A DNA stretch of 33,254 nucleotides from a virus. This document shows, in pieces, positions 2,342-11,500 of this stretch. The notes below the pieces were generated by a model that searched no databases, had not been told where the DNA came from, and saw nothing but the letters and a program-made list of their open reading frames with translations. The stretch spans positions 1 through 33,254 of the IMG/VR virus record IMGVR_UViG_3300046327_000041; one strand, 5' to 3'. The translations under genes and the position numbers were made by a program. The stretch's first letter is position 1, and each line of letters opens with the position of its first letter.

Positions 2342-3379
2342 TTAGTCGTCCAGAATGTTATGGAATCCTTTTAGTAGGAAAATCCACTGTGGTCTATTAA
2401 CGTTAAAATTTGAAATTTTCTTGGGCTTGTTCAAAGAGTATTCATGTTCACCAAGTTCTGCCAAAGTTTCTCTCATTTGCCATCTGTGAGTATTCGGGTT
2501 TCCTTTGATTTTGGTGAATGGTTCATTGGTATTAATAGCCCATCTTTGGAAATCATCAGTATTAAAGAATCCAATAATTCTTTCTGCTTTTTCTCCTCCT
2601 TGAATCATAGTCCTGTGTTCATATAATGCAGTATACCAGTCTAAGTTGAAGATACAATACCATCTAAGATCATTTACAGTTTCTAGCTTCTTGGGAGAAG
2701 CCTTAATCATCGGATCAAAAAACTCTAATAGATTAGAGTCGATATGTTTCTCGTATGACTCATAAATTGTCTTTGGTGTGCCAAGAGTATGGTGAAACAT
2801 TGCAGTTTCTCCTGTGGCAAAGAAATCGTCTGTTGGTCCAAATAGTTGATTACCACACATCCCACTAACGTAAATACAATCAGTTTCCTGATACGCTAAC
2901 TCATTATCTGTTGCAGTTTGTATAATGTATTTGAATTCGTGCTTTAGTCTTCTATCGAACATATCGCCAGATTCGATAATAGAATTATATGTACCATATA
3001 TCCTAACTTGTTCTGGATCATTAGCATAATGTCTTAAAAGAAGAAGGATATATGTACTGTCGATTCCACCTGACCATAGAACATAGATGGTCTTACCTGT
3101 AGCTAGAAGTTGTTTGGCTCTTTCTTCAGCTACTGCATTAAAAGATTTTGTAGAAAACCCTAATGGGATTGGATGGATATCTTTAGCTATGTTTAAGTAG
3201 TGTGGAATAGACTTAGTTCTATCATACACCATATTATGTTTGTTCAACCCAAACTTGTTGTATGTGTCGAGAAGGTTATCGCTATATTCTTCTGACAAGA
3301 ATGGTGCCATAAGATGTTTTTTACTTTGAATTATCTCTGGTACGATGTGGGTGTTATAGTATAGAATCTCTGGTCTCAT
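2342..3379 (-). CDS. PP-loop ATPase (asparagine-synthetase/ATP-pyrophosphatase type)
   Basis: A 345-residue protein with the PP-loop motif SGGIDST at residues 103-109, after a hydrophobic strand (TIYVLW). This is the ATP-binding signature of N-type ATP pyrophosphatases such as asparagine synthetase B, QueC and NAD synthetase, which adenylate a carboxylate or carbonyl before amide or thio transfer. No N-terminal glutaminase domain is present: there is no catalytic Cys2 or Ntn start, and the first 80 residues do not resemble one. Any nitrogen donor must therefore be free or bound elsewhere. The substrate cannot be read. It has its own late promoter box (3419-3426) and an AAGGAT ribosome site at about 3382-3387, and it lies just after the solute-binding-protein gene and its terminator. 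It may act with the radical SAM enzyme in tail or small-molecule modification (inference). ATPase superfamily is confident; function is open. Confidence 0.8.
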   Translation of the reverse strand: MRPEILYYNTHIVPEIIQSKKHLMAPFLSEEYSDNLLDTYNKFGLNKHNMVYDRTKSIPHYLNIAKDIHPIPLGFSTKSFNAVAEERAKQLLATGKTIYVLWSGGIDSTYILLLLRHYANDPEQVRIYGTYNSIIESGDMFDRRLKHEFKYIIQTATDNELAYQETDCIYVSGMCGNQLFGPTDDFFATGETAMFHHTLGTPKTIYESYEKHIDSNLLEFFDPMIKASPKKLETVNDLRWYCIFNLDWYTALYEHRTMIQGGEKAERIIGFFNTDDFQRWAINTNEPFTKIKGNPNTHRWQMRETLAELGEHEYSLNKPKKISNFNVNRPQWIFLLKGFHNILDD

Positions 3380-3434: not shown

Positions 3435-4382
3435 TTAGTGTAGTTGAATCTTCTCAACTAGACCTGGAGTGAAGTAGTCAGCAAACTTAGCGTAAACTGG
3501 AGCAGTGACTTCTTTGAAACGTGCTTCTTGTTCAGCAGTCATCTTAACAACTTCAACACCCTCAGCTTCACATTGAGCCAAGATGTTTGGAATATCAGCA
3601 ACAGATTCACGACGCTCTTGACGAGCAGCATTGAATGCAGCAGTAGACAAGATTTCTTGAGTTTCAGCATCGAACTGCTTGAAGAAGTCTTGGTTAACGA
3701 TGATAGAAGTCAAGAACAAGCTATGTGCTGTATCATTAACAACTTTGAAAGACTTATGTTGATCTAATGGGAACACACGAACGTAAGTAGATTCACCAGC
3801 TTCAATAACTCCAGAGTCAGCTGCAGCGTTCATTTCTTCTAAAGCGATGTGCTCATTAGGAATAGCGCCAAGCAACTTGAATGTCTCAACAGCAACAGGA
3901 GAACGGCTAGTGCGAACAGTGCGACCTTGCCATGCTTCTACAGTATCAGCCTTAAAGTTAGCTGGAACAACACGGTATCCACCAGAGTAAGTGAAAGACA
4001 TAGCGTGAGTGTTAGAATTAGCAGCAACGCCAGCCAATAGATCCATACCAATAGAACCTTCTAACACTACATCAGCGTGATCGTGGTCACGGAACAGGAA
4101 TGGAAGATCTAGGGCGTGCAGGTCTTTGTTGTAATCAGCTAACCAAGTAGTGTAGATATGGCTCATTTCAATAGTGCCATTATCAACTAATTGCATCAAA
4201 GCATCTTTAGTGATTTTCTTGCCACCGTTATATTTGTTAGTATAGTCAGTTAAAGAAAGAACTTCGATGTCGAAAGCACCATTAGTTTTCTCATTAACTT
4301 CTTTAGCGAAACGCTCCGCTACTTTTAAAAATAAGCCAATAGGTTCGTGTGCGATCACCCATTTTACATGCTTAATAGTCAT
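3435..4382 (-). CDS. DctP-like TRAP solute-binding protein without signal peptide
   Basis: A 315-residue protein with the fold signature of TRAP-type (DctP/TAXI-like) periplasmic solute-binding proteins: a beta-alpha start with FAKEVNEKTNGAFDIEVL (26-42), LDLPFLFRD (91-99), GYRVVPANFK (135-144), the key WQGRTVRTSRSPVAVETFKL segment (151-170) with the Arg region that clamps a ligand carboxylate in this family, LGAIPNEHIALEE, and a C-terminal helix set. Family members are normally exported; here the N-terminus (MTIKHVKWVIAHEP) has no signal peptide or lipobox, so the product stays in the cytoplasm or is built into the virion. The start overlaps the 103-residue gene by ATGA. Two late promoter boxes lie inside that upstream gene, suggesting high late expression. 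Possible roles are ligand sequestration, a sensor, or a virion-displayed binding domain. No TRAP membrane subunits are present. Family call is confident; role is unknown. Confidence 0.82.
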   Translation of the reverse strand: MTIKHVKWVIAHEPIGLFLKVAERFAKEVNEKTNGAFDIEVLSLTDYTNKYNGGKKITKDALMQLVDNGTIEMSHIYTTWLADYNKDLHALDLPFLFRDHDHADVVLEGSIGMDLLAGVAANSNTHAMSFTYSGGYRVVPANFKADTVEAWQGRTVRTSRSPVAVETFKLLGAIPNEHIALEEMNAAADSGVIEAGESTYVRVFPLDQHKSFKVVNDTAHSLFLTSIIVNQDFFKQFDAETQEILSTAAFNAARQERRESVADIPNILAQCEAEGVEVVKMTAEQEARFKEVTAPVYAKFADYFTPGLVEKIQLH

Positions 4383-4690
4383 TCGGTTTCTCCTAATTTG
4401 CTGGTATCAAATATCCAGCTTTGTGTTTGTTCTTTAAAATTCATAAATCTTTTAATCACAGTTACTCTGTTATTTATAAGATTTCTCATTGTATTTATGT
4501 CAGGAATCTCTTCCTTATTTAGGATATCAGAGACTGGAATCACCGTGTCTCTGTGTCCATATTCTTTAGTGTTCGAGTCGTATATAAAGTAATCTTTCAT
4601 CGAAAACCACTCCAAGTTACCGTCCCCTTGTTCAATAGATCTTGGAAACTGTCTAATCTCGATTACATATCCATTAATAAATGAACTCAT
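4379..4690 (-). CDS. Uncharacterised 103-residue protein in radical SAM operon
   Basis: Not recognised. It is a soluble, cysteine-free, charged protein with aromatic-rich strands in the first half (YVIEIRQFP, EWFSMKDYFIYDS) and a helical second half (INTMRNLINNRVTVIKRF). It is joined to the radical SAM gene by an ATGA overlap at 4687-4690 and to the solute-binding-protein gene by another at 4379-4382, so the three are translationally coupled. Such position suits a small partner, chaperone or peptide-recognition protein for the radical SAM enzyme, but no recognition-element motif can be confirmed by eye. It lacks Cys, so it is unlikely to be a thioether-peptide precursor itself. Confidence 0.65.
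   Translation of the reverse strand: MSSFINGYVIEIRQFPRSIEQGDGNLEWFSMKDYFIYDSNTKEYGHRDTVIPVSDILNKEEIPDINTMRNLINNRVTVIKRFMNFKEQTQSWIFDTSKLGETE
4471..4478 (-). promoter_or_regulatory. Late promoter box (exact) ahead of solute-binding gene
   Basis: Minus strand TATAAATA inside the 103-residue gene, about 90 bases upstream of the start at 4382. The same bases encode Leu-Ile-Asn-Asn, so chance is possible, but the match is exact and a second box lies 21 bases upstream. Confidence 0.45.
4492..4499 (-). promoter_or_regulatory. Second late promoter-like box (CATAAATA)
   Basis: Minus strand CATAAATA, one mismatch to the T4 late consensus, in tandem with the box at 4471-4478. It also lies inside coding sequence, so it is weaker evidence on its own. 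Confidence 0.3.
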
Positions 4691-6075
4691 GCTGCTACAA
4701 TAGGAATGATTTTTTTAGGTTTTCTAACCTTCTCTGGTTTACCTTTAGTCCACCAGAAGATATCTTTACGGTCTTCTCTTAGTGGACCATCAATATACTC
4801 TGGAATGCAACCTGTCATTTCTTCGATAGCAATACAAAATTCTACAATATTGTCACTATATGCATTGTCACAAGAGGCTTCCCATAGTGGTCCAGTTAAG
4901 AACATACAAGCACCCTTACAAATATGAATAACTGGGCAGCTTGGGCATTCTTTACGATCACTCCAGTGTGTTCCAGTATCGAGCCTTGTATTAGCTAAGT
5001 CTGAAACAGTACCTAGTTTGTGTGAAAATCCAGATGGATTGTTAGACACAGAACTAACGTTTTGGCAAGTTAAAACATTTCCGTTTAAGTCTACTGCTAT
5101 GTTTTCTGCTTTGTCCATACCACATTTTTGTGGCAGAGATTCTATTCGAGTACCATCTATAATAGAGGTAACAAAACCTGAAACCTTTTGGCCAATCGTG
5201 GCAAATCTACTAACCTTACCAGTACGTAACTCGTCCAGCGCCACAGATCTAAATCGAATATCTTCTTCACCATCCAACAACGAATTGGCCATACCACCTT
5301 CGTCATAAGCATCAACAAACGTGCCTTCGCCTATAACCAAATGTTGAATATAATCTGCACCGATTTCATTAGCTACAAATTTAACAAAGAATGCTTCTAT
5401 TCCCGCACGACTAATATTTTTAGAGTTAATCATAGAATTAAAACTAAACATCTTCTTTGGGGCGAGACGTTTGTATAAATCTATGATACCGATTTTAGAA
5501 TCTGGATCATCTAATGGATCTGGACCACGCACTGGTTGTCCTGGTCCATCATGGGATACTGCCACCCCGAATCCCATTGATTCTAACCAATCATTCTTTT
5601 CTTTATCTAATAAACTACCATTGGTAATTACTGACATAGACCCGTTAGGATACTTAGCCTTAATAGCTTCTGCTAATGGCTTAAATGTTTTCCAATAGAC
5701 AAAAGGTTCTCCACCCCAAAACTCGAAGTGTGAACCTTTTCCTAAACCATCTTCTCCACCTTCATACCAATTGCTCATATTAGCAACAAACGGATCTACG
5801 TCATTAAGATTAGTAGAATCTGCATGTGGAACAAAACGCTGATTGCAGTAATCGCATTCAAAATTACAAGAAAGACCCAACTGAATTTTAATAGTCTTTA
5901 GGTTTTTCTTACCATGCTCAATCTTAGCTGGCTCTTTAACTTCATCTTGTATCTTAACGTTACTAAGAATTGGTGTATCATCACCCCACTTTAGTAAACT
6001 TAATGAACTATCATAAGTTATTTTTTTATGAGTACTGTCCGCTGGGCACCATGCTGTAATATCAAAAATCGCCAT
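4687..6075 (-). CDS. Radical SAM enzyme with SPASM domain (peptide-maturase type)
   Basis: A 462-residue protein with both iron-sulfur modules of SPASM radical SAM maturases. The SAM cluster motif CNFECDYC gives C70, C74 and C77 (CX3CX2C), followed by the SAM-binding FWGGEP (119-124) and TNGSLL (151-156). The C-terminal part carries the full SPASM pattern: C318, then G332 and C337 (GX4C), C377-X2-C380-X5-C386-X3-C390-X11-C402. All seven expected cysteines are present. Enzymes of this class (anSME, sactipeptide, ranthipeptide and PQQ maturases) usually modify peptide or protein side chains by radical chemistry. There is a GAGGAT ribosome site and a late promoter box at 6105-6112, and the gene leads an operon with the 103-residue and DctP-like genes. 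The nearest Cys-rich candidate substrate is the fibre tip encoded at 7073-8254. The class is certain; the substrate is inference. Confidence 0.93.
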   Translation of the reverse strand: MAIFDITAWCPADSTHKKITYDSSLSLLKWGDDTPILSNVKIQDEVKEPAKIEHGKKNLKTIKIQLGLSCNFECDYCNQRFVPHADSTNLNDVDPFVANMSNWYEGGEDGLGKGSHFEFWGGEPFVYWKTFKPLAEAIKAKYPNGSMSVITNGSLLDKEKNDWLESMGFGVAVSHDGPGQPVRGPDPLDDPDSKIGIIDLYKRLAPKKMFSFNSMINSKNISRAGIEAFFVKFVANEIGADYIQHLVIGEGTFVDAYDEGGMANSLLDGEEDIRFRSVALDELRTGKVSRFATIGQKVSGFVTSIIDGTRIESLPQKCGMDKAENIAVDLNGNVLTCQNVSSVSNNPSGFSHKLGTVSDLANTRLDTGTHWSDRKECPSCPVIHICKGACMFLTGPLWEASCDNAYSDNIVEFCIAIEEMTGCIPEYIDGPLREDRKDIFWWTKGKPEKVRKPKKIIPIVAA

Positions 6076-6092
6076 ATTATCCTCAAAAAGAT

Positions 6093-6124
6093 TATCCTAA
6101 CACGTATTTATGCTCGTTAGGATA
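6093..6124 (-). terminator. Inverted repeat, possible terminator after beta-rich gene
   Basis: Perfect 9-bp arms (6093-6101 and 6116-6124, TATCCTAAC type) around a 14-base loop, followed on the minus strand by ATCTTTTTG. It lies 10 bases after the stop of the gene ending at 6134. The stem is AT-rich and the loop is long, so termination would be weak. The loop holds a late promoter box. Confidence 0.45.
6105..6112 (-). promoter_or_regulatory. Late promoter box (CATAAATA) for radical SAM operon
   Basis: Minus strand CATAAATA in the intergenic gap, one mismatch to TATAAATA, 30 bases upstream of the radical SAM start. The expected transcript start (about 6099) lies within the second arm of the surrounding inverted repeat. 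Confidence 0.55.
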
Positions 6125-6133
6125 GCCTGAATA

Positions 6134-7063
6134 TTAAAGTGTCTTAGTGAACGTGTTTCTGTTTACCCAGTATTTGAAACCCATCTTCACTCTAACTAAA
6201 TCACCAGAATTCATACCAGTTGTTACAACTTTAAATGAACCAGAACCATTGGTTACTGGAATTTTCAATTTAGGTAAGTATCCACTGTCTTGTACCAAGT
6301 AGATAAAGTCGACTTTATCTGATGTGACATCGAAATTAACTGTCAAAATATCATCAGTTTGTGCAGAAGAAGTGACATTAATTTCTGGCATTAGTTCAAA
6401 TGTTAATCTGATAATAGGATCCAGCGGATGTTTAGTTAAATTACCAGTAAAAGTCACTGTATGCTCTGCATAGTTAGTACCAGCTAAATCAATGTTGAAG
6501 TATTCAATTTCTGGAGTGTTATTCCAATATTCACCGTCAGCTTTAACTGCTGGTCTAATGATAACAGGAATAATATCATCTGCAGATGGGTTATCTTTAG
6601 TTACAAAGAACGCAATCACTGTAGCATCACCAAAGGTGTTAAAATCTTTTGTTGGTAATGTATTAGCATATGAGTTGATTAAATCACCCTCAAGTACAGT
6701 GTGTTCTTGTGCATCTGCAGTTTCATCGTCTGGAGTGTTTGTATTAACAACAGAATCTTTAATATACCATAAAGTTTGTCCATCAGCAGTGCTAAACATG
6801 CTGGTGTCAATTTTAAATTTATTGATTACTCTGTTCGAAGTTTCATTTTTGAAAACAACATTCAATATTGTTCCAGATAAATTCAAATCCCAATTAAATG
6901 TTACAGGAATTTCCTGAAAGTTAGTATCAGTCCACTCTGTCTCTGTTGGAAACTCTCCAGCCCACTCTACATCGGGTAGAGACTGTTGGAACAATGTGTT
7001 TGGAATAGCACCCTTTTGTGAAAGATATCTTCTTTTGTATTGTATTTTAGTTACGTATTGCAT
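6134..7063 (-). CDS. Uncharacterised beta-rich protein downstream of tail fibre
   Basis: A 309-residue protein not assigned to a family by eye. Composition is high in Thr, Asn, Asp, Val and Ile with alternating hydrophobic strands (for example VTFNWDLNLSG, HTVTFTGNL, IIRLTFELMPEINV), and the last 80 residues look like one or two Ig-like beta sandwiches ending in FKYWVNRNTFTKTL. It has no cysteine. The start is 9 bases after the stop of the fibre gene, so it is in the same transcript. This suggests a distal fibre subunit, adhesin or fibre-tip partner. A fibre-specific chaperone is an alternative but such proteins are usually smaller and helical. Confidence 0.6.
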   Translation of the reverse strand: MQYVTKIQYKRRYLSQKGAIPNTLFQQSLPDVEWAGEFPTETEWTDTNFQEIPVTFNWDLNLSGTILNVVFKNETSNRVINKFKIDTSMFSTADGQTLWYIKDSVVNTNTPDDETADAQEHTVLEGDLINSYANTLPTKDFNTFGDATVIAFFVTKDNPSADDIIPVIIRPAVKADGEYWNNTPEIEYFNIDLAGTNYAEHTVTFTGNLTKHPLDPIIRLTFELMPEINVTSSAQTDDILTVNFDVTSDKVDFIYLVQDSGYLPKLKIPVTNGSGSFKVVTTGMNSGDLVRVKMGFKYWVNRNTFTKTL

Positions 7064-7072
7064 ATGTTATCC

Positions 7073-8254
7073 TTAGCAGTTGCAATTACAGTTAGTGCAA
7101 TTGTAGTAATGGTGATGCGGATCCATGTTGTGGTTCGTATCTAAGTGCAGACGCATATAACAGTTGATGATAATGTTACCGCAGTTACCACCAGCGTTAC
7201 CAGCGCCACGCCCAATGTTGGCGTTGTTGTGGTTACCATGCTTAGTGTTATGTGGAACCCATCCACCGTAGTTACCTAAGTCGTTTGCAAACTGAGATAG
7301 GTGCCCTGGACGACCAGAGACATTACCCCATGCAACAGAAGAAGCAGAACCAGCGTTGCCACCAATGTTTGTTACTGTAACAGCACCCGTCATACCTTGT
7401 ACAGATGTGACTGGGACAGAAACTACAACAGCACCCGTCATACCTTGTACAGATGTAACGTTTGCATTGATAGTTGGATTGCCAGCAACACCATTACCAT
7501 TATCAACAGTAATACCAGCGCCTGCAACGATAGAACGTGCAGCAGCGACACCAGAAGATGTGATAGTAGTAAGACCAGCACCAACACTAGACAGTGCTGC
7601 TAAGTTAGCAGCGTAAGCCTGGACATCTGTACCAATACGAACACCCAATGTTCCACGAGCAGTGGCAGCATCAGCATCGTCAATTAATGTACGACCATAT
7701 GACGAAAGAGTAGTTGTGCTCGCAGTACCAGAACCAGTGAAGTATGGCAGAGCATCAACGCCAGAAGTAACAGAAGCTAATGCTGCTAATTCATAGTCAA
7801 ATGCTTGTACGTCTGTGCCGATAGCTAAACCAAGAGCAGTGCGAGCACCAGCAGCAGTACTAGAACCAGTACCACCGTCAGCAATAGACAAGTCTGTAAT
7901 ACCAGTAATAGTACCAGAAGTGATTGCAGCAACTCCAGTATGAGTACCAGAGAAGTTGGTAGCTGTAATAACGTTAGCTGAGAAGTTACCACCAGAACGA
8001 GTTACAACGCTATTACCAGCTTGGTCTGTGGAGCTAGTGTTTAAGCCATCAAGTAAATCAGCGTCTAGCCCAGAGCCAGATCCATCGACAGTTACTAACT
8101 TAGCCAGTACATCTGCAGCAGTATAGCTAGCAGCAGTTTGGGCTAATTGAAGTTGTGTGTTTAAGTTATTAAAGTTTGCATCGACTTCAGCGTTAGTAAG
8201 AGGACTACCCTTACCAGCACGAGTCGTGATTGTTGCAGCGTTAACTGATGCCAT
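7073..8254 (-). CDS. Tail fibre with Cys/His/Asn-rich C-terminal tip
   Basis: A 393-residue fibre. Residues 1-60 ([24 protein letters not shown]) match the attachment region common in phage fibres. The shaft has [29 protein letters not shown] (the 'DGGTG...AR.aLG' fibre repeat, seen again as ATARGTLG), and a tandem SVQGMTGAV repeat. The last 55 residues differ sharply: rich in Asn, Gly and His, with [15 protein letters not shown] and the terminus [10 protein letters not shown]. All six cysteines of the protein are at 358, 365, 386, 389, 391 and 393, and each follows Asn. This could bind metal (as HxH sites in T4 gp37 bind iron) or carry enzyme-made crosslinks. The AAAGGAAA ribosome site fits the start. 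Fibre call is confident; tip chemistry is inference. Confidence 0.85.
7380..7456. repeat. 29-base direct repeat in fibre gene, 48-base period
   Basis: Identical 29-base copies at 7380-7408 and 7428-7456. They encode two in-frame SVQGMTGAV units 16 residues apart in the fibre shaft. Near-identity at DNA level suggests a recent duplication. Confidence 0.9.
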
Positions 8255-8272
8255 TTTTAGATTTCCTTTAGT

Positions 8273-8500
8273 TCAATCTTTGTTCAAGAGTTGAAGAATT
8301 AACGATTTTATGTCTTGCAATTCGTTCTTTATGTTATTTATCTCAACTGTATGTTGAGAAATAGCGTTTTCACGCTGTTCAGCTTCTCTCATACGAACCA
8401 TATATTCTTCGTACTCAGTTCTGTTTGTGTTTATGATAGCTCCGCTAGAGGAGTCTCTAACCAAACCATCATGTCCTATCACCTTCAAAAAATCAGTCAT
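8273..8500 (-). CDS. Small coiled-coil virion-associated protein
   Basis: A 75-residue protein. The N-terminal half (LKVIGHDGLVRDSSSGAIIN, then TEYEEYMVRMREAE) is a pattern of short conserved proteins next to tail genes in T4-like aquatic phages. The second half is a coiled coil with heptad-spaced Ile and Leu (VEINNIKNELQDIKSLILQLL). The start overlaps the stop of the 2083-residue gene (TAATG at 8498-8502), so translation is coupled. The function is unknown; an oligomerising connector or fibre-attachment role is plausible. Confidence 0.65.
   Translation of the reverse strand: MTDFLKVIGHDGLVRDSSSGAIINTNRTEYEEYMVRMREAEQRENAISQHTVEINNIKNELQDIKSLILQLLNKD
8335..8342 (-). promoter_or_regulatory. 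Possible late promoter box (GATAAATA) ahead of fibre gene
   Basis: Minus strand GATAAATA, one mismatch to consensus, inside the 75-residue gene about 80 bases before the fibre start at 8254. It coincides with codons for Ile-Asn-Asn, so it may be chance. Confidence 0.3.
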
Positions 8501-11500
8501 TATGGGCAGGCAATAACTCGCAAGTCTTTAACGATTGGAACCGCACAGCTGTTTGTAGACTGCAGAACAATTTTAACTACCAAACCATCAAACGGTGTTA
8601 AACCAGTTAACGTGAAATCGATATCTGAGAAAGAAGGGTTACCATTTTCCACCTTAACGATAGTAGAATCTGGATTCATCTGTGTATATTTAGTCGCCGC
8701 TAATTGCTTAGTATCACCAACACTGGTCTTGTAGAACACCTTTACTGTAGCTTCAGAAGGGATATTAGCTGCAAAACGAACACGTAGGTATGTAGAAGAG
8801 TTTGCAAACTTGATAGGTGTAGTTACATACTTACCAAGAGAAGAAGAACCTTCTGGTGTAATTTCGTCGAAGAACAACTCACGAACAGATACCACAGAAC
8901 CAGAAAGAGCAGTTTCTGCAGTTCCAGAGAATCCGCTTAGAGTGATCGTAGCAGTAGTGCCATCGTCTGTGAAACCAGTAACTAAGAATGTTCCCAAGTT
9001 GCCTGCTGTAGTGGCAGAACCAGAGATAGTCACGTAACGACCGATACCAATAGCAGCCATGGAGCCACGGATCGTAGCGTTTGTAGAGCTAAAGCCAGTT
9101 GCAGTGAATGCCCAGTTAGTAGAACCAGAGACGATAGATTTAGAATCTAGAGCAGCCACGTTAGTGTTTGCTTCGGTAGGTTGGTTAATCTTATTAGAGA
9201 TAGCAACCAAGCTAGTGCGAGCAGTATCGATAACTGGAGAAACCGCATCGTTAGTAGTAGAAATCTGAGCAGAGAACGTCACAGACTTGTTACCGCCCAT
9301 CAATATATTTTCATTGATCTCAGATGCAATCACACGTGGAGAATAGAAGAAGTTATTCTCTTTAACTAAACATGGAGTGTATGTGGTATCAGCAACATAT
9401 GGTGTTTGAGAACCATCAATAGCTTTACCAGAAGAAGTCAAGATAGAGAAGCTAGACTTAGTATCAGAGAAAGTCTGCATCTGGATAGATGGGTTGATAA
9501 TGTCGTAAGATACATTACGAGTGGCCATAACTGCAGAACCGCCACCGTAACCACTAGATGTACCAGCAGTAGTAGTTGTGATTGTATAGCTGTTGGCGTC
9601 TACATTAGAAATAACATGGTCACCGTTCAACTCAGCTGCAGGGATACCGTTAATCGCATCAGCAACACCTTTGATGTTAACACGTGAACCAGAGTACATA
9701 CCGTGATCATAGTGCCACACACGAACTGTAGTAGAACCGCTTACGATTTGGAATGGATCAACTTCGATATTGTCATATTGCAATACATCATTAACGAAGC
9801 TAATGTTACCGACAACGCTAGTGTCGAATTGAGCACGGTAAATAGTGAACTTAATGTCTTGGTTTTGATCTGGAGTCCATGTAGATGCGTTCTGTGATTT
9901 GAACAAAACACCAGCGTATGGTTGCTCAGAGATAGTTCTTCCAGAAGTTCCTGGGATTGTATCACCAACGTTAGAGATCCAAACTTTGTAGTTGTTAGAG
10001 TCAGACTGAAGAACAAAGCAGTACTCAGTATTGTCTTGAACGTAAACAGGAGTCTTGAACGTAAACTTAGTAGGTGTATCGTAAGATGGGTAATCTGCGC
10101 CATCTAGAGAAACTACATTAGAAGACAAGCTAACTTGAGATGGGTTGAGAGTAGTGCGGCTAAAAGCAAGCACGTTCTTTCCAGGTGTTCCATTTACCAT
10201 CTCACGGATTTCTAATGTAACAGGAATACGATCGTCTTTTGAGGCGAAGAAAATATCAACGCTAGTCAAGAATGCTCCACCTTTTTGCTCGACCAAGAAA
10301 GATTGCGCCAGTGGATCGTACCAACCAGTATCAGAAACTACACGGCTGCCAGCACCTTGATAGATTGTCTGGCGAGCAGCTGGATCGTCGTTTGGACCGA
10401 TGATTTCTTTAACCAACTCTGCATTACGGACAGCGTTAACAGATGCTTGTTTAGTTTCAAGAACACCTTCAGCACGATAGATACCACGACCACGTGAAGT
10501 CCATTGTCCAGTAGAAGTAGAAGCGTCAATTAGTTTCAACTCACGAGCACCAGTACGGAAACGGATAGCATCTGTGTTTGGAATTTCAAACAAGAAGTTT
10601 AATTCACCGTTTTTATTAGTGATTAGAGTCGTAGGTGATGTAATTGAAACAACAGTACCAGAAGCACCAGAAACAGAACCTGTGAATGTTTGTCCATTGG
10701 CAAATGTGCCGATAACGTTTGCCAACTCAAGAGTCAGAGCACCAGTATCTGGATCAATAAACTTACCGACAACAACCGCAGATGCAGTATTTAATGAGTT
10801 AGATATAACATCACCACGGTTCAAACAAACCTGAGAATCACCACCAATACGGCGTTTAGTTTCAGAAGCTGATCCACCAACGTTGGTAGAAAAGTCAAAT
10901 ATACCAGAACCTGCTGTGTATACTAACTTGACCGAAGGTGTCACAAAGGCACTAACATCGATGTCATCGAAATATGCATAGAAACGAGTGGCTGGTTTTA
11001 GACCCTTAGTCTGTACCAAGATGTTTCTAGAACGAATGTAAGGGATAACAGCAGTAGAAACAGTGCGGTCTGCAACAGTTTCATAGTCAGTTTTAACTGC
11101 TAAAGAAGTCTTAACACCAGTACGAGACTGTCCGACTGCTTGTGCTAGATTTTCAACTTTAACTACACGATGTGCCCAACCAGATGCATCTGGTCCAAGA
11201 CCAAACTGAGCATCAAGTGCAGAGCCACCGTCACCGTAACGACGGTCAGCTTCCAGAGTTTGAATACCAGTAGAAAATGCAGTACCCAACCATTCAGTCT
11301 GCCAAGCACCCCACACAGTACCAAAACCAGCATCGCCGATAATACCAGCACGAGTTGCTAGGTCTTTGATAGTGTTATAGTTGCCTTCTACTTGCTGCAC
11401 TAGGTCAGGCATACGTGTAGTTTCAAACCAATCATCAGATGGTGGGTTGATTTCTACGTTACCTAAGAATGTGTAGATAGCAAATGGGTTGATGTTTTCT

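Follow-up and report, generated by a model that had tools for sequence, protein, structure and literature searches.

A candidate phage-coded maturation system: a radical SAM/SPASM enzyme and the Asn-Cys tail of virion tip proteins

Introduction

Why should a phage encode a radical SAM enzyme with a SPASM domain close to a tail fibre whose cysteines are all crowded at one end? This question is raised by a virus sequence of 33,254 nucleotides (IMG/VR record IMGVR_UViG_3300046327_000041, positions 1 to 33,254), referred to here as the window, in which the enzyme is encoded at 4687–6075 and the fibre at 7073–8254, both on the minus strand, with one gene (6134–7063) between them. From the list of open reading frames (ORFs), we take the window to carry T4-like baseplate and tail genes, and the fibre presumably has its place among them. 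A preliminary description of the window had proposed, from proximity and composition, that the enzyme modifies the fibre tip in the manner of sactipeptide and ranthipeptide systems. Here, we report a computational analysis of this proposal. Judged from sequences, the two genes quite probably belong to a phage-coded two-part maturation system, in which the radical SAM/SPASM enzyme modifies a short Asn-Cys tail at the end of a virion tip protein. The tail itself is probably the substrate of the enzyme.

Results and Discussion

The radical SAM/SPASM enzyme

The enzyme consists of 462 residues and carries C70, C74 and C77 in a CX3CX2C motif, together with seven cysteines at positions 318, 337, 377, 380, 386, 390 and 402. 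The seven-cysteine pattern of SPASM domains reads CX9-15GX4C–CX2CX5CX3C–C, and the enzyme fits it at every position (C318-X13-G332-X4-C337, C377-X2-C380-X5-C386-X3-C390 and C402). None of the ten ligand cysteines varies across the 81 rows of an enzyme alignment (A2) that includes the window sequence. The intact set of cluster ligands claimed in the preliminary description was therefore confirmed, and the gene encodes an intact radical SAM/SPASM protein; three further cysteines, at positions 10, 414 and 423, were absent from that account.

The NCBIfam model of the SPASM domain (TIGR04085) recognises the enzyme with a score of 32.0 at a cut-off of 27, Pfam Radical_SAM gives 26.1, which is under its cut-off of 29.5, and PHROGs assigns the protein to phrog_1802, "radical SAM domain-containing protein" (7.9e-59). 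Among the best 25 of 36 NCBIfam families, no full-length family was above its cut-off, and the SPASM-domain model alone passed. The E-values of these families (PapB 5.1e-14, QhpD-type 5.2e-13, nif11 1.6e-12, and 2.4e-8 for the anaerobic sulfatase-maturating enzyme, anSME) point to SPASM peptide maturases in general. The curated models of sactipeptide and ranthipeptide maturases were not reached, with 52.2 of the required 340 bits for PapB, 27.6 of 425 for the SCIFF maturase and 25 of 720 for RumMC. A reading of the enzyme as a defence protein was rejected: PADLOC gave viperin-type matches only (3.3e-12), and these cover residues 63–177 and stop short of the SPASM domain.

An AlphaFold2 model of the enzyme, built from 81 sequences, reached a mean predicted local distance difference test (pLDDT) score of 94.5. 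Structural comparison of this model by VIA-align placed CteB at the top, with Z-scores of 23.8 and 23.6 over 346 and 364 residues at 3.9–4.0 Å (5why_B: 23.8, 346 residues, 3.9 Å), followed by ChlB (21.2), anSME (19.8), TigE (19.1), SuiB (about 15) and SkfB (14.8). With its CX3CX2C motif in a partial TIM barrel, and a model that aligns to CteB, ChlB and anSME over 318–364 residues, the protein belongs to the radical SAM superfamily. The leading matches of sequence-profile comparison were TigE (1.4e-17), CteB (6.4e-12) and anSME (3.4e-11). Residues 1–30 of the model form three strands with no helix ahead of the barrel, and the alignment with CteB begins at model residue 1.

The fibre and its Asn-Cys tail

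The proposed substrate at 7073–8254 is a protein of 393 residues with its anchor near the N-terminus, and it is matched by the tail-fibre families of PHROGs (best 7.7e-11), which places it among tail fibres. Translation bore out the composition described earlier: the fibre contains exactly six cysteines (358, 365, 386, 389, 391 and 393), each of them directly after an asparagine, and all lie within the last 36 residues. As worked out from codon positions, this stretch of residues 358–393 with its six Asn-Cys pairs corresponds to 7076–7183 on the minus strand.

The C-terminal tail proper, NCTNCNCNC (residues 385–393; 7076–7102, minus strand), forms a constant end behind a variable tip. In an alignment of 26 T4-like fibres (A3), N388, C389 and C391 are invariant (26/26) and C386, N392 and C393 are kept in at least 90%, while variation is, by eye, greatest in the tip that precedes the tail. 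The same is seen on a small scale in locus L003, where the enzyme is identical to that of the window and the fibre differs by a few tip residues, none of them in the tail. The tail is not a DNA repeat, because its codons are mixed (AAC/AAT and TGC/TGT), with 40 distinct 18-mers among 49 tails of the family.

Co-occurrence of enzyme and tail

To follow the enzyme family, its sequence was compared by tblastn with 50,697 phage records. Only the Achromobacter phages JWF and 2-1 encode near relatives there (42.7 and 43.8% identity), and four more records match weakly. In IMG/VR, the single sequence led to 50 loci and the alignment to at least 592 stretches with a relative at E ≤ 1e-3, from which 80 loci were kept. 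Bacterial genomes contributed 70 enzyme loci, many of which are apparently prophages (Limnohabitans, Comamonadaceae, Burkholderia, Rhodospirillales and others). The 196 loci with an enzyme match (profile E ≤ 1e-10) were reduced to 116 by clustering at 90% identity, and 105 of these had at least 4 kb of upstream sequence (2 phage records, 58 viral contigs and 45 genome contigs), so that 11 representatives were dropped. A tail was counted under a strict rule, which required a same-strand gene with a CxCxC motif either within its final 45 residues or directly ahead of a Hint motif.

Co-occurrence of the enzyme family with Asn-Cys ends had been named in the preliminary description as the check on its proposal, and it was found to an extensive degree. 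A strict tail is present in 90 of the 105 non-redundant loci, including one (L231) in which the tail gene lies 6.1 kb downstream instead. Six-frame reading added six tails (L204, L172, L210, L237, L234 and L215) and a looser spacing three more (L012 and L014 with NCRNCNC, L230 with NCNCDRNCGC), giving 99/105 in total. Tail genes account for 91 of the 488 genes within 4 kb upstream of the enzyme, for 2 of 110 at 4–6 kb and for 1 of 654 downstream.

Searches that started from the tail or from the fibre anchor led back to the enzyme. A scan for coding sequence of NCNCNC followed by a stop found at least 119 stretches. Among the 118 loci examined, 53 had no open frame of at least 50 residues ending there, and the other loci gave 69 ORFs in 42 groups among the matches listed, with the enzyme on the contig in 32 groups and not in 10. 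The same scan revealed a class of Cys-rich proteins of 125–173 residues, encoded 12–19 bases upstream of the enzyme (L064, L066, L073, L084, L103, L106, L131, L136 and L166). In the anchor searches, N-terminal anchors alone were used as queries, and the T4-like and siphophage anchors gave 80 and 40 loci, respectively. After removal of near-copies, 54 tail-ended fibres were accompanied by the enzyme (29 and 25). Six distinct anchored fibres (eight loci) have no tail although the enzyme is present, and a separate small tailed protein is encoded in all eight; L339, an apparent exception, has both a tailed protein and the enzyme on its contig. Overall, the judged distinct loci comprise 61 with a tail, all with the enzyme, and 5 without a tail, none with the enzyme. 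These five (L344, L375, L376, L422 and L373, the last of which was first classed among the loci with short downstream sequence) lack both an enzyme on the contig and a tail gene in the locus DNA examined. The first classification also comprised 10 tail-ended loci with short downstream sequence and no match, 14 open-ended ORFs, 3 tail-less ones with short downstream sequence and 4 without a fibre ORF.

Several observations weigh against a strict pairing of enzyme and tail. The Fisher p value for the position of the tail genes, 7e-35, is indicative only, as the loci are related and their independence is overstated. An antisense-ORF control for the tail frequency gave 19/105, which is high; this control was set aside, the value being attributed to antisense NCNC reading SCSC, and gene position and the anchor-found loci took its place. 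The share of tailed loci among the anchor-found ones is biased upward, with few tail-less loci judged, because the anchors used as queries had been taken from tailed fibres. Six of the 105 loci remained without a tail (L188, L309, L220, L229, L211 and L236). L188 and L309 appear frame-broken and L236 is a partial enzyme match of 107 bits, while L220, L229 and L211 are real exceptions. For the two bacterial relatives without phage context, L211 and L229, Cys-rich partners were searched in the DNA around the enzyme and none was found. The relative in L211 (Sulfuritalea metagenome-assembled genome, MAG; 3554–9314) adjoins a C39-peptidase ABC exporter and an HlyD protein, which suggests a secreted peptide system.

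Tails without an enzyme also exist. Among the ten enzyme-less groups, again among the matches listed, four are T4-type fibres with no more than 0.8 kb of contig left downstream, one (L145) has an ordinary clear tail on a 23.7 kb contig without the enzyme, and five are groups of other proteins. The last five groups represent four protein families (L065/L122/L142; L068/L105/L130/L153; L101; L111) that end in NCNCNC with no enzyme on their contigs of 7.5–89.7 kb. A lone NCNCNC end as proof of the system is therefore refuted: the motif alone is insufficient and can serve something else. The first two of these families are virus proteins of about 184–190 and 202 residues, respectively, and no member of the radical SAM family was found on their contigs.

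Some further loci deserve mention in their own right. In L237 (Halomonas sulfidaeris, 6137–9303), the enzyme gene is split into several frames and the tail ORF (NTNCNCNCNCDCGNS) persists. Enzyme loci also occur in L189 (Akkermansia muciniphila MAG), L192 (Bacteroidetes MAG) and L235 (Klebsiella MAG); binning contamination is likely, because L189 and L192 branch with Limnohabitans-type enzymes.

Carriers of the tail and Hint domains

The enzyme family adjoins T4-like fibres, small FGDGT-type proteins, MQNYTEIP-type siphophage fibres and others, and the tail is kept throughout. The pair is found in siphophages, apparent prophages and T4-like phages. The carriers range from small proteins of 72–173 residues, which are presumably virion parts, to fibres of 300–500 residues and more; small FGDGT-type tailed proteins stand two or three in tandem in L040, L049, L129 and L141. 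Because the tail so often sits on a small protein instead of a long fibre, we propose the Asn-Cys tail, and not the fibre as such, as the substrate. On a quick tree of 97 enzymes, the anchor labels change 27 times (shuffled mean 58.5; minimum possible 9), a rough figure because the labels, hand-written motifs with nine named classes and a mixed "other" class of 20 rows, are approximate, 24 of the 94 inner branches are weak and the tree method is a quick one. A single BLAST clustering of the anchors had merged the two main fibre anchors and was rejected in favour of these motif labels.

These data bear on whether the two genes might be linked by accident, as common cargo of a hypervariable host-recognition island that marine T4-like phages share by ancestry. 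In pelagimyophages, radical SAM genes are described as variable cassettes by which two host-recognition clusters differ (PMC7029224), and many of our loci are close relatives. Against such an origin, the pair extends well beyond T4-like phages, it persists across nine named anchor labels and the mixed rest with 27 label changes, and the tail-first and anchor-first searches agree. Other genes of the island are also less well kept, with 2-oxoglutarate (2OG)-Fe(II) oxygenases in 35, PP-loop proteins in 22 and DctP proteins in 19 of the 105 loci. Accidental linkage is therefore highly improbable. Rather, the link of the enzyme to Asn-Cys fibre ends, first drawn from the window alone, is supported by the co-occurrence, by a tail that is kept as its carrier changes and by the five judged tail-less fibre loci without the enzyme.

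In phages JWF and 2-1 and in L052, the tail does not end the protein: the Cys directly after it is the first residue of a Hint domain. Pfam Hom_end_hint matches from residue 308 in JWF (3e-12) and from residue 306 in 2-1 (5e-12). L195 and L210 have the same layout with scores under the Pfam cut-off, L301 is weaker, and L223–L226 were assigned by motif only. Hint domains cleave before their first Cys, so that the tail in these proteins would become the C-terminus, as in the other carriers. Providencia phage PSTNGR1 encodes a protein that matches Hint weakly (7.2e-4, short of the cut-off) and carries no Asn-Cys tail; the search of the phage records gave no enzyme for this phage, which is one case.

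The JWF locus (L002, 5814–7265) may thus encode a self-cleaving fibre tip in a cultured phage, and a Shufflon_N match (5.3e-7) was obtained as well. The host of JWF is Achromobacter xylosoxidans, and the phage is described as an isolated temperate siphophage (PMC3899368).

Nature of the modification

The composition of the tails was examined across loci. In 85 non-redundant tails, 87% of the 128 isolated cysteines and 89% of the 110 first cysteines of a run directly follow Asn, compared with a background Asn frequency of 14%. The spacing between cysteines is mostly two, with Asn (355), Ala (66) or Asp (47) as the residue between, and, of 180 C-terminal tails, among them some spurious ORFs, 119 end in Cys. 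A reacting pair N(i)–C(i+3), by analogy with NxxcA, is not favoured: Asn occupies position −3 in only 10% (isolated) and 14% (first Cys), versus 87 and 89% at position −1.

In anSME, the hidden Markov model (HMM) alignment shows an extra Cys between the first two SPASM cysteines. The corresponding region between C318 and C337 has no such residue in any of the 81 enzyme rows. Seven SPASM cysteines without the extra one are as expected for an open auxiliary cluster that binds a substrate Cys. Together with the nearest structures of the model, this pattern favours thioether chemistry, although it does not amount to proof, and the sactipeptide/ranthipeptide analogy would fit these structures. We give a thioether of some kind about an even chance. 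That each Cys is tied to the Asn directly before it (i to i−1), in a six- or seven-membered thioether ring that would make the tip a string of rigid heterocycles, is a more doubtful idea.

The structural data are not uniform in this respect, and some features speak against the thioether assignment. Foldseek ranked anSME marginally first (4.1e-13) ahead of CteB (7.8e-13), which makes formylglycine chemistry possible. D321 is conserved in 79/81 rows and might act as a fourth cluster ligand that would close the site; in PqqE, an Asp serves as a cluster ligand. Furthermore, no separate leader-binding (RRE) domain is evident in the enzyme model, and no search was made for a separate RRE protein.

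The enzyme could accordingly act on the tail in another way, by forming formylglycine as anSME does, which would place reactive aldehydes at the tip, by epimerisation or by carbon–carbon joining. Besides the Foldseek ranking, HMM alignments to anSME span most of the protein, and the annotation of the JWF enzyme reads anaerobic sulfatase-maturating enzyme. Formylglycine formation is disfavoured by the absence of the extra Cys in 81/81 rows and by the score of the curated anSME model, 33.5 against a cut-off of 349. Sulfatase motifs are of the CxPxR type, and the window tail contains neither proline nor arginine, so such a motif is absent. The strong rule of Asn before Cys and the clustering of the cysteines also suit a two-residue reaction better than the oxidation of single cysteines. 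Taken together, a modification other than a thioether seems unlikely.

Neighbouring genes

The gene between fibre and enzyme (6134–7063, minus strand) encodes a protein of 309 residues with an immunoglobulin (Ig)-like C-terminal domain and is the recurring third gene of the locus. Its model (pLDDT 89.4) matches intimin Ig domains over residues 226–309 (Z 9.4). Solved structures match mainly this C-terminal Ig domain, and Foldseek against viral models returned phage proteins of unknown function, so that the structure of this neighbour gave no explanation of the system. The family was found by BLAST in 72/105 loci and by HMM in 81/105, and it is doubled in eight loci. The HMM did not find it in 24/105 loci, including JWF, 2-1 and the directly adjacent pairs L196 and L197. 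No Cys is common to all members, and 11/80 have none. A different conserved substrate gene beside the enzyme was what the preliminary description had named as speaking against its proposal; the Ig-like gene does recur, but some groups have the pair and not this gene.

This gene is relevant to a further possibility, namely that the tail is an unmodified metal-binding or disulfide tip, while the enzyme targets another protein, such as the Ig-like one, and is linked to the tail only through the same host-recognition module. CxC repeats with nearby His are typical metal sites, and DPHHHYY precedes the Asn-Cys tail in the window fibre. The frequency of the Ig-like family and the four NCNCNC-ending families without the enzyme point in the same direction and count against a modified tail. 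Nevertheless, the Ig-like protein is not found in nearly a quarter of the loci and lacks a common Cys, and the judged tail-less fibre loci have no enzyme. We consider an unmodified tip improbable, and modification of the tail by the enzyme remains the preferred explanation.

Downstream, a gene for a protein of 103 residues (4379–4690, minus strand) overlaps the last four bases of the enzyme gene; its family occurs in 19/105 loci and is not claimed as part of the system. The 2OG-Fe(II) oxygenase family was tested with Pfam 2OG-FeII_Oxy_5 in four members, which all matched, one of them below cut-off. Two or three such oxygenase-like genes follow one another immediately ahead of the radical SAM gene in L040 (5714–7562) and L049 (6160–7998); in L040, PF13759 matches two genes at 2.2e-7 and 4.1e-7 and a third at 0.0084. 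These oxygenases are a possible second tip-modifying activity.

Two other genes of the window lie beside the fibre region. A PP-loop (SGGIDS) protein of 345 residues (2342–3379, minus strand) has weak PAPS-reductase/QueC matches in PHROGs and looks, by eye, like Asn-synthase-type ATPases. A DctP-family TRAP-transporter substrate-binding protein (3435–4382, minus strand; Pfam 6.8e-44) is encoded beside the fibre genes, and no signal peptide is evident in it by eye.

Proposed mechanism and significance

In the proposed maturation, the phage would make a virion tip protein (a T4-like tail fibre in the window) with a short C-terminal Asn-Cys tail. The enzyme encoded just downstream would act on this tail inside the host cytoplasm, either ahead of assembly or in the course of it. 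Cleavage of S-adenosylmethionine (SAM) at the C70/C74/C77 cluster is expected to give a 5′-deoxyadenosyl radical, as follows from the superfamily and the motif. A tail Cys would bind the open-site auxiliary cluster of the SPASM domain, as the seven-Cys pattern and the CteB-like model suggest. The radical may then abstract hydrogen from one of the neighbouring residues, with the adjacent Asn as the likeliest donor, whereupon a C–S thioether would form, and the reaction would repeat along the tail. Where a Hint domain follows, its self-cleavage would expose the tail as the C-terminus. The mature tip might be a stiffer, covalently tied knot that resists proteases or holds metals, which is speculative.

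If this is true, the tip carries a covalent modification that is invisible in the sequence, with consequences for how receptors are bound, for tip stability, for structure prediction and for the production of recombinant fibres. A set of viral radical SAM genes annotated by domain only or, in JWF, as sulfatase maturation would also gain a function, and cultured Achromobacter phage JWF makes the proposal directly testable. Should the rings be strictly adjacent, they would represent a new post-translational modification by which viruses alter their own attachment proteins; it would be modular across anchors and, in some phages, exposed by Hint cleavage.

In the literature, radical SAM genes have been listed among the Fe-S-related genes of T4-like viruses (PMC5332604), and noted within a doubtful ahbD heme auxiliary metabolic gene (PMC9301287). 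Searches of open-licence PMC literature showed no report of the pairing of enzyme and fibre tail, and no description of virus radical SAM chemistry that finishes the virus's own virion proteins; most subscription papers and all bioRxiv preprints were outside this scope, and the result is no proof of novelty.

Comparison with known systems

The fibre tips of the phage T4 gp37 type are trimeric and have metal-binding HxH motifs. The window tip with its DPHHHYY is similar in that the fibre end could hold metals, whereas we know of no Asn-Cys tail or partner enzyme in gp37-type tips. Like the enzyme proposed here, anSME modifies a Cys of a full-size protein, and it is the first match of Foldseek and the annotation of the JWF member; the phage enzyme differs by the missing auxiliary-cluster Cys and by its score far below the curated cut-off. 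QhpD puts thioether bonds into a protein subunit that is not a ribosomally synthesised and post-translationally modified peptide (RiPP) (PMC8326336), and it is among the closest NCBIfam matches. In contrast, the enzyme reaches 48 bits at a QhpD cut-off of 453, and the substrate of QhpD is a subunit of quinohemoprotein amine dehydrogenase instead of a virion tip.

Enzymes that act many times on a short repeat are represented by HxsB/C (His-Xaa-Ser) and TvgB (TVGG repeats), for which repeated action is putative and shown, respectively (PMC9062424). Their repeats and chemistry are different, and the enzyme is below both His-Xaa-Ser cut-offs (HxsB 26.6 of 370 and HxsC 22.2 of 267.9 bits). PapB, which makes freyrasin, gave the best NCBIfam match and likewise handles repeated cysteines near acidic or amide residues. 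It joins Cys to Asp, from directly adjacent up to six apart (PMC9413430), so a bond between neighbouring residues has precedent, and an Asn-Cys β-thioether is described for the ranthipeptide NxxcA (PMC8326336). The phage enzyme is unlike PapB in that it scores 52 bits against a cut-off of 340, and here Asn stands immediately before Cys.

A close parallel is CteB, the ranthipeptide/SCIFF maturase with the precursor CteA, which shares the radical SAM barrel and the SPASM domain, gives the best VIA-align match and has a Cys-rich substrate; its auxiliary cluster has an open site (PMC8326336). It differs in that the identity is 18% and no helical RRE was seen in the enzyme model. The candidate in the window is the 393-residue fibre and not a short precursor peptide with leader and core, as in a RiPP pair, and across loci the proposed substrate is a phage protein of about 72 to several hundred residues instead of a short peptide. 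As far as sequences tell, the scheme of a SPASM radical maturase with a Cys-rich substrate thus appears to have been moved to virion tip proteins, and a proposal first made from one window is borne out to an unusual degree.

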